From Aquiluna sp. (lineage in GTDB: Bacteria > Actinomycetota > Actinomycetes > Actinomycetales > Microbacteriaceae): a DNA stretch of 64,000 nt. The position numbers were made by a program, and so were the translations under genes. The DNA is taken from assembly GCA_021741585.1 (NCBI GenBank), contig JAIOXN010000002.1:1-64000 (forward strand), in the 5' to 3' direction. Below the pieces are notes generated by a model. That model was given only the letters and a program-made list of their open reading frames with translations, made no database searches and was not told the DNA's origin. Shown piece by piece: positions 1-26,855 of the stretch (its first letter is position 1; every line of letters begins with the position of its first letter).

Positions 1-552
<552 letters not shown>

Positions 553-18200: not shown

Positions 18201-18494
18201 CTATGGGAGTGCTATCTGCTGCCCAGGTGTTAGATCAACAGTCTCAAGAGCATTTAGCAGAACAACTTCTGCAATCCATTCACGAGGGTCTTGGCCAGCC
18301 GCGTGAACACTTGCCATCCCCCAGAGCGAATCCCCTGAAACAACGGTCACATATTCAAGTGCGGTCGGCTCAACGTTTCCAGCTTGAGAAACAGAAATGC
18401 CCGCAACGCTGAATGATGCTGCCAGTGCCAGGATCGCGACTGCGCGAAATAGGCGACGTGGGTTAGTAAGTCTGTAGTTTCCTAGAGCTGCCAT
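18201..18494 (-). CDS. Small secreted/anchored LysM protein, SOS-regulated (YneA-like position)
   Basis: 97-aa protein. An N-terminal hydrophobic segment (LFRAVAILALAASFSVAGISV, about 15-35) acts as a signal or membrane anchor. A single LysM-like domain follows (YVTVVSGDSLWGMASVHAAG ... LTPGQQIAL), which binds peptidoglycan. It is divergent from lexA and carries a near-consensus promoter with a GAAC-N4-GTTC LexA box just downstream of its -10. The layout matches Bacillus YneA and actinobacterial SOS-induced division inhibitors (LysM protein beside lexA). A role as a damage-induced division inhibitor is inference from domain and context. Confidence 0.8.
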   Translation of the reverse strand: MAALGNYRLTNPRRLFRAVAILALAASFSVAGISVSQAGNVEPTALEYVTVVSGDSLWGMASVHAAGQDPREWIAEVVLLNALETVDLTPGQQIALP

Positions 18495-18527
18495 GATGCC
18501 GACTGCCTTTCTGTTCGAATTTCTGTT

Positions 18528-18543
18528 TCGAACACTTGTTCTA
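18528..18543. promoter_or_regulatory. LexA (SOS) box controlling the LysM gene
   Basis: TCGAACACTTGTTCTA has perfect GAAC/GTTC arms with a 4-nt centre, matching the actinobacterial SOS consensus. It lies immediately downstream of the LysM promoter -10 (18544-18549), where bound LexA would block transcription. Confidence 0.85.
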
Positions 18544-18571
18544 ATTATAGAAATAGTTTTCGTATTTGCAA
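18544..18571 (-). promoter_or_regulatory. Promoter of the LysM gene
   Basis: TTGCAA (18566-18571), a 16-nt spacer and a perfect TATAAT (18544-18549) on the minus strand. The transcript would start inside the SOS box, about 45 nt before the ATG. Confidence 0.75.
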
Positions 18572-18600
18572 GAGAATTTGCAAGTTATTTACAAATCTTT

Positions 18601-18646
18601 CGAAAATGTGTTTGTTTTCACACTCAAATACGAATACAGTTTCGAT
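18601..18646 (+). promoter_or_regulatory. lexA promoter with two degenerate LexA boxes
   Basis: -35 TTGTTT (18612-18617), a 17-nt spacer and -10 TACAGT (18635-18640). A degenerate box CGAAAATGTGTTTG (18601-18614) overlaps the -35, and CGAATACAGTTTCG (18631-18644) overlaps the -10. This is consistent with LexA autorepression, by weaker boxes than the one on the LysM side. Confidence 0.65.
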
Positions 18647-18690
18647 ATAGGTAGCTAACAGGTAGCCTCCGACATTTTTGAAAGAGAGCC

Positions 18691-19311
18691 ATGGACGAGA
18701 CAATTCTTACCTCGGTTCAGAAGCAGATTCTTGGTGTTATTCGAGAGTCAATGGTGAATCGCAACTATGCCCCTTCGATGCGTGAGATCGGTGAGTCGGT
18801 TGGCCTAAGTTCCACGGCCAGCGTTTCTCACCAACTAAATAAACTCGAACTCCTTGGTTTCATTAGTCGTGACCCAAGACGTCCAAGAACAATTGACATC
18901 TTGGGCGAGGACAACGATGGCGAACTGCTAAAGGCTGATGCTGCGATGGTTCCGCTGGTTGGGCGCATTGCGGCCGGTGGCCCAATTACCGCAGAACAGA
19001 ATGTTGAAGACGTGTTCGCCCTTCCGCGCCAGTTGGTTGGTCAGGGAGATCTGTTTTTGTTGAGAGTCGTTGGTGAATCCATGATCGACGCCGCAATTTG
19101 CGATGGCGACTGGGTCGTTGTCAGGCAGCAGCAGAATGCAGAGAATGGCGATATTGTCGCCGCAATGCTCGAGGACGAGGCGACAGTCAAGACTTTCAAA
19201 CAGCGAGATGGCCACACATGGTTGCTACCAAGAAACTCTGCGTTCGAGCCAATTCTGGGCGATCACGCCGTGATTCTCGGAAAAGTAGTGGCGGTTCTCA
19301 GAGCGGTTTAG
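18691..19311 (+). CDS. lexA: SOS repressor LexA
   Basis: Repressor of the DNA-damage regulon, cleaved with RecA help. 206 aa. The N-terminal winged helix (about 1-70) includes [20 protein letters not shown]. The cleavage site is Ala95-Gly96 in GRIAAGGPI, and the peptidase S24 dyad is Ser130 (VVGESMIDA) and Lys167 (ATVKTF). The start ATG has a GAGAG site. The last 14 nt overlap the end of convergent hflX. Confidence 0.97.
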
Positions 19312-24615: not shown

Positions 24616-25104
24616 TTACCCCGCGGCTTGAGCTTTGCGAATCGCCTGGGAAATCACGGCAGAAGAAAAACCCCTACGCGCAAGGAATCCCGAGAGCCTG
24701 CGATAGCGAACATCGCTTTCAAGCTTGGCTAACTGCCCGTATCTCTTTAGGGCAAGGGCGTCGGCAAGGGACTGCTCTTTTTCAGAATCTAATTGCTCTA
24801 GAGCCATTGCCGCATGTTGCTCGCTAACTCCTTTGGTTCGAAGTTCCCTTGCAATAGCGGCCCGGGACTTTCCACCCGCGGCAATTCTCGAATTCACAAA
24901 GGCCCTTGCAAAGACAAGGTCATCTATGAGCTGCACCTCCACAAACCGCGCCAAAATGGGCTCAGCGATTTCAGGTGGAATCTCTCGTTTGATAAGAATC
25001 TGACGCAGTTGCTCTTCGGTCTTCATACTGCGGGCCAGTTGGTGCAAAAGCACGTTTCTGGCCCGCTTCTCAAGCCTTTCTGGGGAAAGCTCTTTAGCTT
25101 CCAT
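24616..25104 (-). CDS. recX: RecX family regulatory protein
   Basis: Modulator of RecA filaments. 162 aa, three-helix repeats throughout: [19 protein letters not shown], then [20 protein letters not shown], then [18 protein letters not shown]. It overlaps the recA 3' end by 11 nt, the standard recA-recX coupling. Confidence 0.93.
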
Positions 25105-26158
25105 TCGCAGCCTTGGCGACCGGTGCGGCCTCCTCGGCTGGCAAGTCTGCTACTGCGCGTGGCACGCCAATTCCGAGCTTGACCTTGATGCGGGACTCGA
25201 TGGTGTTGGCAACTTCTGGGTTGGTTTTTAGATACTGCCTAGAGTTTTCCTTACCCTGACCCAGCTGCTCGCCCTCGAAGGTGTACCAAGCGCCGGATTT
25301 CTTTACAACTTCCTGTTCAACACCGAAGTCGATCAAGCCACCTTCGCGGGAGATTCCCTCACCGAACATGATGTCGAATTCAGCCTGACGGAAAGGTGCG
25401 GCCACTTTGTTCTTTACTACCTTGACGCGGACTCGGTTTCCGACTGAGTCGGTTCCGTCCTTCAGCGTTTCAATGCGACGAATATCTAGTCGAACCGAAG
25501 CGTAGAACTTCAGTGCTTTTCCACCAGAGGTGGTCTCAGGTGAACCAAAGAACACACCGATCTTTTCACGAAGCTGGTTGATGAAAATTGCTGTGGTTCC
25601 GGTGTTGCTGATTGCCCCAGTTAGCTTTCTTAGCGCCTGTGACATCAGGCGAGCTTGGAGACCGACGTGTGAGTCGCCCATTTCACCTTCGATTTCCGCA
25701 CGCGGTACTAGTGCTGCAACGGAGTCGATGACAACGATGTCTACCGAGCCAGAACGAATCAACATGTCTGTAATTTCGAGCGCCTGCTCACCAGTATCTG
25801 GCTGAGAAACTAGAAGTGCATCGACGTCGACGCCTAGCTTTCTGGCATATTCAGGGTCAAGTGCGTGCTCGGCGTCGATGAAGGCGGCAATTCCGCCGGC
25901 AGCCTGAGCATTCGCAATAGCGTGCAGAGCGATGGTGGTCTTACCTGAGGACTCTGGACCGTAAACCTCAACGATTCGACCCTTTGGTAGCCCACCAATT
26001 CCTAGCGCAACATCCAACGCGATTGAACCGGTTGGAATAGCTTCGATTGGTGCGCGTTCTTCCGAGCCTAGGCGCATAACTGAGCCCTTGCCGAACTGAC
26101 GATCAATCTGGGCTAGAGCGGTCTCTAGGGCTTTTTCTCTATCTGCTGCACTTGGCAT
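25094..26158 (-). CDS. recA: Recombinase RecA
   Basis: DNA-strand exchange protein and LexA co-protease. The frame is open from 26347, but the genuine start is ATG at 26158 ([15 protein letters not shown]), giving 354 aa; the region before it holds the promoter and SOS box, and a GGAAGAGG site precedes this ATG. Walker [10 protein letters not shown], Walker B-type VIDSVAAL, and the conserved SMGK-like GKGSVMRLG are intact. No intein. Confidence 0.96.
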
Positions 26159-26275: not shown

Positions 26276-26300
26276 ATTAGATGTTCGAACAAAGTTTCGA
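26276..26300 (-). promoter_or_regulatory. recA promoter region with LexA box
   Basis: TCGAACAAAGTTTCGA (26285-26300) is a 16-nt SOS box with one mismatch from TCGAAC-N4-GTTCGA. A TCTAAT -10 (minus strand, 26276-26281) lies directly after it, so LexA would sit between -35 and -10. The region 26159-26307 holds no gene. Confidence 0.75.
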
Positions 26301-26307
26301 ATGAAGT

Positions 26308-26535
26308 CTAGTCGGCGTGTCTTATTGTCTTGGGCAGTCCGTGCCAACGTTCCTTTGGAACGCCCTGGCTTGAGCAGATGGCTAGCCAGATGTCTTTAGG
26401 GTCTTCGCCTTGAGCAATCAGCTCTTTTGGGGTTTTATCAAACAGTTCCGTCAGCCGGGTATCGCTAATTAGAACCTGGGCGAATTCTTTACCAAACTCG
26501 TCTCTCACGAGTTCTTGAAATTGACTGAGCTTCAC
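26308..26535 (-). CDS. DUF3046 family protein
   Basis: 75-aa actinobacterial protein of unknown function, typically located just upstream of recA, as here. Conserved blocks are [20 protein letters not shown] and [19 protein letters not shown]. The GTG start (26535) overlaps the clgR stop TAG by one base. Predicted small soluble helical protein. Confidence 0.88.
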
Positions 26536-26855
26536 TAGCGTGAAGGCGAATAAATCGCTGCCTCTGTCACAAAAGCGTCTGGAACAGTGTCCGGGATGTA
26601 GGTGTCGTCGACGTAAATACCTTCGATGAGAGCAACGCGATCACTTACCTCACGCATCACAACGCTAAGTGGAACCTCTAGAGCCTCGGCTACAGAAGCA
26701 AGAATCTCTGAAGAGACTTCCTTTTGACCGCGCTCAACCTCAGACAGGTAACCCAAAGCTACCGATGCCCTAGCTGCAACCTGACGCAAAGTCTGGCCAC
26801 GGTTTAGTCGGTGAGTGCGAAGCACATCACCAATCTCTTGTCTCAGAATTACCAA
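26535..26855 (-). CDS. clgR: ClgR-like XRE-family transcriptional regulator
   Basis: 106-aa protein with a Cro/CI helix-turn-helix (about 8-65: LRQVAARASVALGYLSEVERGQ) and a short acidic C-terminal tail. The position after cinA and before recA is that of ClgR, activator of clp protease genes in actinobacteria. The start is TTG at 26855, set by a perfect AGGAGG 5 nt upstream. A TAGGTT -10-like hexamer lies just upstream of the ribosome site. Confidence 0.85.
   Translation of the reverse strand: MVILRQEIGDVLRTHRLNRGQTLRQVAARASVALGYLSEVERGQKEVSSEILASVAEALEVPLSVVMREVSDRVALIEGIYVDDTYIPDTVPDAFVTEAAIYSPSR

Follow-up and report, generated by a model that had tools for sequence, protein, structure and literature searches.

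A conserved divergent lexA–LysM gene pair in Aquiluna, with overlapping LexA-type boxes that recur in most Microbacteriaceae

The 64,000-nucleotide stretch of Aquiluna DNA analyzed here (hereafter the window) carries a conserved SOS gene pair, consisting of lexA and a divergently oriented gene for a small LysM protein, of an ordinary type and with details that hold up. A lexA-linked LysM division inhibitor lying beside lexA, such as YneA or ChiZ, is a kind of gene already known. The anatomy of the locus, its conservation, and the geometry of its operators and promoters are observed here, and we consider it quite likely that the pair works as a standard SOS switch, in which the LysM product most likely delays septum synthesis. 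The new points are the predicted operator of the LysM gene, which is double and overlapping in most of the Microbacteriaceae; the box arm at lexA that doubles as its predicted -35 element; and a covarying leader hairpin, present before the LysM gene in most family loci outside the clade of the window. The lexA–LysM division checkpoint is extended, at the level of its genes and sites, to small-genome aquatic actinobacteria, with four conserved box-like sites in 196 bp. The features of the region are as follows.

18201..18494, minus strand: gene for the LysM protein, 97 aa, with a basic N-terminus, a hydrophobic helix (12-32) and a C-terminal LysM domain (50-97)
18516..18529: box A' (CGAATTTCTGTTTC), a weak LexA-type box having one base in common with box A, at a 13-bp offset
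18529..18542: box A (CGAACACTTGTTCT), spanning the putative start of LysM transcription; best-scoring position in the window (16.87)
18544..18549, minus strand: predicted LysM -10 element TATAAT; TANNNT in 19 of 21 genus loci
18566..18571, minus strand: predicted LysM -35 element TTGCAA; TTG in 21 of 21 genus loci
18601..18614: box B (CGAAAATGTGTTTG), right arm in common with the lexA -35 element; second-best position in the window (12.45)
18612..18617, plus strand: predicted lexA -35 element TTGTTT, under the right arm of box B
18631..18644: box C (CGAATACAGTTTCG), containing the lexA -10 element; low motif score (2.50)
18635..18640, plus strand: predicted lexA -10 element TACAGT, inside box C and 17 nt from the -35 element
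18691..19311, plus strand: lexA, 206 aa, with a LexA DNA-binding domain and an S24 peptidase domain
26286..26299: LexA box of recA (CGAACAAAGTTTCG), assigned to the same regulon as lexA and the LysM gene

The spacer that an earlier note on this DNA had placed between the two genes, 18495-18690, is the exact gap between the LysM open reading frame (18201-18494, minus strand) and lexA (18691-19311, plus strand). The genome to which the window belongs has a size of 1.39 Mb and is 99.76% complete. A homologue of the LysM protein was found in 21 of the 22 genus genomes searched, and in all 21 loci lexA is divergent from it, the extrapolated starts being 181-198 nt apart. Identity between the LysM proteins falls to 54% within the genus, and the boxes are nonetheless kept. 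Homologues of the same type are present in 146 of 150 genomes of the family (Microbacteriaceae) and in 106 of 246 genomes of the phylum; the absence of a LysM match from the other 140 phylum genomes, around half of the sample, is counted against the SOS-switch explanation. Of the loci read, 86 of the 87 from the family and 26 of the 28 from other families have the divergent arrangement; in the remaining three (one and two, respectively) lexA was not found. The 87 family loci comprise 27 of 30 loci from the family search, one locus from the phylum search, and 59 taken as about every second remaining row of the family search. One of them (L061) is a short locus from which lexA is absent; the promoter counts refer to 86 family loci. 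For Streptomyces, clear homologues of these division regulators are reported to be absent in the cited passages of one study (PMC9380542). A phage or mobile origin of the LysM gene was rejected, the phage evidence consisting of a single weak and partial match.

The GAAC-N4-GTTC LexA-type box claimed beside the LysM promoter is present as GAACACTTGTTC at 18530-18541. Such a match by itself proves nothing, because 1.11 exact GAAC-N4-GTTC sites are expected by chance per window and 30 exist in the genome; the pattern CGAACNNNNGTTYG with two mismatches was likewise rejected as standalone evidence (111 matches, with 107 expected). We judge the boxes to be real from their conservation across the genus, and this phylogenetic footprinting is decisive. 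Box A is unchanged in all 21 genus loci except at one Y position, and together with its flank it reads CGA-N7-TTTCGAACAYTTGTTCTA in every one of them. Box B is invariant (21 of 21), and box C has the form CGAATAC-NN-TTTCG throughout, with AG as the middle in 19 loci and an offset of 30 nt from box B in all 21. Furthermore, a fourth box (A', 18516-18529), overlooked by the earlier note, overlaps box A, and its arms CGA and TTTC are preserved in all genus loci; its motif score is 2.63. The motif matrix was trained on 73 sites from 26 lexA–LysM intergenic stretches of other families only, and since these sites were chosen to lie within one mismatch of CGAAC-N4-GTTCG, the matrix favors that form. 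In the window it ranks box A first, box B second and the recA box seventh (7.45).

The LysM promoter that had been proposed, TTGCAA-16-TATAAT, was located on the minus strand (18571-18566 and 18549-18544) and agrees with the consensus at 10 of 12 positions. The match alone is weak, because shuffles of the region contain a mean of 0.7 promoters of equal quality. The single LexA box claimed for this gene had to be replaced by a predicted double operator, composed of two boxes offset by 13 bp. With a threshold of at most three mismatches in both boxes and at most two in one of them, the A/A' pair with its one common base was found in 74 of 86 family loci, whereas 40 rounds of shuffling gave 0.1 on average and never more than 1. 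The same threshold is reached in eight of the 21 genus loci, though the arms are kept in all of them, and in none of 26 loci of other families. The 13-bp offset was found in none of 28 family recA promoters (400 nt read), and so does not mark the regulon of the family as a whole. Among the 74 double-box family loci, 63 have TTG 17 nt ahead of box A, 72 have a -10 element (TA, with T four bases on) inside box A, and 63 have both; the final T of this element lies in the box arm by which the loci were chosen. In the genus of the window, the LysM promoter is situated about 12 bp further upstream than in the family, and box A is canonical. A terminator-like match at 18512-18534 was rejected as merely the box A'/A repeat.

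The low motif scores of boxes A' (2.63) and C (2.50), the position of the lexA -10 element inside box C, and the failure of A' to reach the double-box threshold in more than eight of 21 genus loci would be accounted for if only boxes A and B were operators, A' and C being kept for promoter or leader reasons with LexA hardly touching them. We regard this as rather unlikely, because both arms of box C (CGAA and TTCG) are kept in 21 of 21 loci although the -10 element takes up only the middle, and because 74 of 86 family loci show the 13-bp pair as well, against 0.1 in shuffles. Four LexA-type boxes remain the preferred reading of the spacer.

The earlier note had also described two degenerate boxes over the -35 and -10 elements of lexA. 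Their positions were borne out, but box B is not simply degenerate: it appears so because its right arm is TTTG rather than TTCG, and this TTTG arm is part of the predicted lexA -35 element. A box ending in GTTTG was recognized in 108 of 133 lexA promoters (21 of 21 in the genus, 65 of 86 in the family, and 22 of 26 in other families) and is absent from the other 25. In 104 of these 108 promoters (21 genus, 64 family and 19 other), TANNNT follows 16-18 nt after TTGNNN, whereas control spacings gave 1 in 432. Half boxes are described as the more strongly conserved in actinobacterial lexA promoters in the cited passages of a 2008 study, which raised the question of monomer binding (PMC2248561). 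One arm doubling as a -35 element would be a simpler reading of the half boxes than monomer binding, and it offers a testable reason for the puzzle of that study. In the lexA leader, a further sequence, CGACATTTTT (18670-18679), lies directly before the ribosome site and is largely conserved in the genus alignment, with its GA-less core CATTT in every row; it is not a LexA box.

In most members of the family an inverted repeat with a CCGGCC loop follows directly after box A' (e.g. L066:1231-1270 and L070:1342-1381). Hairpin loci were chosen by the loop motif CCCGGCCG alone, which occurs in 53 of 86 family loci, in none of 21 genus loci, and in two of 26 from other families. Across the 55 rows with the motif, 801 of the 880 cells are paired when the arms are aligned in the correct register, compared with 29-45% at shifts of 1-3. 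The hairpin alignment was made from 52 of these rows; L096 and L106, which belong to other families, were left out, as was L195, whose motif lies outside the leader, 35 nt short of the distal end of the stretch. In the aligned rows 90.6% of cells pair (75.1% when shuffled), 14 of 16 pairs vary in both partners, and covariation scores 0.455 versus 0.177, with none of 500 shuffles attaining 0.455. In 43 of the 52 leaders a ribosome-site-like stretch followed by a start codon was recognized, and the median distance from the hairpin to the beginning of this site is 10 nt. The hairpin lies between the predicted LysM promoter and ribosome site, where the mRNA is predicted to begin.

A covariance model recovered the hairpin in 70 of 120 family genomes, of which 42 had supplied a training row and 28 had supplied none. 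All 85 reported hits are located 29-274 nt upstream of the LysM match, and 14 of them represent the same place on the other strand. The model scored the best 55 (family) or 33 (phylum) first-look candidates per genome, of up to thousands, so that weaker copies elsewhere could be missed. On this scale, the hairpin was found in none of 198 phylum genomes (best 33 candidates each, in a set containing no genome known to match), and nothing was found in the genome of the window (best 55 candidates). Rfam 15 gave no match to the hairpin at the gathering score in the 15 loci tested; the only match in the window and these loci was the 16S rRNA of the window, a piece of the gene lying at the window edge (1-552, minus strand). 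No report of the hairpin was found in a literature search of the best-ranked open-licence papers. The repeat would represent a structured mRNA leader, without an Rfam match in the loci tested, that is tied to one SOS-response gene. The overlapping operator adjoining it is of a type familiar from the colicins.

The exact loop motif is missing from 33 of 86 family loci, some of which keep a hairpin with a changed loop (e.g. L077, L085 and L148), and others of which have no hairpin. Because L065 and L069 are without the hairpin beside their close relatives L067 and L072, which carry it, the hairpin can be lost. A tree of LexA was built to place this loss. Because its bootstrap values had not stabilized and ungrouped rows do not enter its change count, we use only one clade, with support of 100/98, in which none of the 11 rows (eight of the genus plus L062, L063 and L064) has a labelled hairpin. 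A separate leader hairpin in the window itself was rejected, since its 8-bp stem has a z of -1.92, eight of 200 shuffles are equally good, and the model finds nothing there. The missing motifs and the close relatives without a hairpin would also suit an inverted repeat that is no regulator, kept by templated (quasipalindrome) repair or as a DNA cruciform without any role in RNA. Arms can also stay complementary through a mutational process. We nevertheless find this explanation doubtful, because all 85 model hits reported, from 70 genomes, fall at the same place, and because the loop is nearly fixed while the arms vary yet still pair.

The 97-aa LysM protein begins with basic residues, followed by one hydrophobic helix of 21 residues (12-32). 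Its LysM domain, a single one as claimed, reaches 18.6 bits in Pfam (cut-off 20.9) and is supported by matches to profiles of LysM structures and by a fold prediction with a mean pLDDT of 77.9, for which the best structural matches are LysM domains (Foldseek E 2.2e-3, probability 1.00). In the genus protein alignment (A1, 14 of 21 proteins) a GDSLW motif is nearly invariant. The protein also has a conserved DPRDWIA stretch, which the aligned LysM structures do not have. The likeness to Bacillus YneA that had been drawn holds in so far as the protein is small, has a LysM domain and is of the YneA/ChiZ type; as a member of the equivalog NF010723 it falls short, with 42.3 bits against a cut-off of 60. 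The LysM protein is probably a division brake, and its mode of action would be of the same kind as that of YneA, which is described as blocking septal wall synthesis by a membrane helix that binds FtsW and a LysM domain that binds peptidoglycan, with D46, T47 and I81 required for the division block (PMC13396833, cited passages). On our reading, D46 and T47 correspond to the DS of GDSLW.

Just past the hydrophobic stretch, S36-x-A38 is invariant in 14 of 14 aligned genus proteins, which would also be compatible with cleavage as a signal peptide, and the cited passages of one study describe ChiZ as a hydrolase of the cell wall (PMC3989709). The product might accordingly be imagined as an SOS-induced, secreted protein that binds or remodels the wall, without division as its target. 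We hold this to be improbable, because no catalytic domain was found in the 97 aa (Pfam and NCBIfam), the basic residues and the 21-residue helix fit an anchor, and adjacency to lexA is typical of division inhibitors. An anchored division brake is the interpretation that we prefer.

LexA itself was identified (TIGR00498, 233.7 bits with a cut-off of 110.95; PF01726 and PF00717 matched) and was aligned to LexA structures; the Ser and Lys that we take to form its dyad are conserved relative to structures 6a2q and 6a2r. Around 6 kbp beyond lexA the same window contains recX and recA (24616-26158 or 26218), and upstream of recA the sequence CGAAAYTTTGTTCG (read on the recA strand) is present in 18 of 18 genus recA loci read. 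Upstream of the recA box, at 26300-26330, ACACGCCGA (recA strand) is conserved in the genus alignment; perhaps the neighboring gene ends here, or a second regulator binds. Nearby, at 26535-26855, is a gene for a helix-turn-helix regulator, which we assume to be ClgR-like. In the family recA promoters (L203-L230), a box pair at a 12-bp offset, in contrast to the 13 bp of the LysM operator, occurs in seven of 28, several with a common TTCGAA. A genome-wide regulon defined by the pattern CGAAYAYNTGTTYG with up to two mismatches was rejected (84 and 88 matches versus 76 and 92 in controls), so that we followed only the exact match at C1:293978. This sole perfect match elsewhere in the genome, CGAACATTTGTTCG (G000:C1:293978-293991; L143:5979-5992), has palindromic arms and is situated between an SRAP gene and a DUF6504 gene, the latter being followed by a DnaE-type polymerase gene that we read as dnaE2. 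We read this as a probable SOS mutagenesis operon.

From this arrangement we infer LexA binding, induction, membrane topology and a division block. LexA on boxes B and C at the lexA promoter and on A'/A at the LysM start site would repress both genes; damage would activate RecA and lead to LexA self-cleavage, turning both genes on, and newly made LexA would bring repression back. The LysM protein would have one membrane helix and its peptidoglycan-binding domain outside, and it would delay septum synthesis during DNA repair, as YneA does through FtsW. The papers retrieved in the literature search gave no data on LexA binding, induction or division in this family.

More tentatively, and at somewhat less than even odds in our estimation, the division brake of the Microbacteriaceae may be under a double lock, consisting of an overlapping LexA operator across the -10 element and start site and of a hairpin that governs how long the transcript lasts or how it is translated; in the small-genome Aquiluna lineage the hairpin would have disappeared and the promoter shifted upstream of box A, which is now canonical. 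If true, the brake would be on only under real damage and would go off quickly. The motif scores match the direction suggested by the earlier note, with tight repression of the LysM gene and looser repression of lexA; timing deduced from box sequence stands on weak ground. Three reports call for this caution: LexA of Mycobacterium tuberculosis has comparable affinity for different boxes (PMC8607333), falling and vanishing peaks in Streptomyces venezuelae showed no motif difference, although affinities differed (PMC9380542), and in Caulobacter the order is reportedly set by promoter strength (PMC12700426).

The predicted double operator resembles that of the Escherichia coli colicin operons, in which two overlapping LexA boxes likewise stand ahead of a gene dangerous to its own cell (PMC2994835 and PMC4482635); these boxes are described as binding two LexA dimers and as guarding against untimely production (PMC2994835). 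In contrast, the gene considered here is a chromosomal, putative division gene, with a predicted pair of boxes of the Gram-positive type at a 13-bp offset. The known lexA-linked inhibitors are described as having the same layout as the present locus (PMC6851548 and PMC3989709), and we place the LysM gene in the group of YneA, ChiZ, SosA and DivS on the basis of its adjacency to lexA, its LysM domain, and the conserved LexA box in its promoter. SosA of Staphylococcus and DivS of Corynebacterium are described as occupying the same place beside lexA and having a single membrane segment, but as being without a LysM domain, unlike the protein of the window. ChiZ (Rv2719c) of M. tuberculosis is similarly described as actinobacterial and lexA-linked with a single membrane segment (predicted here), and its extracellular LysM domain and induction by damage would have counterparts in Aquiluna. 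It differs as a reported hydrolase for which LysM is apparently not necessary, and it is likened here by description rather than by sequence. The closest likeness by NCBIfam match is to YneA of Bacillus subtilis, also described as a small single-helix LysM protein beside lexA; both have the GDxLW motif, and NF010723 is the best NCBIfam match. The Aquiluna protein is set apart from YneA by a score of 42.3 bits versus the 60-bit cut-off and by its DPRDWIA stretch, and the gene by its double overlapping operator.
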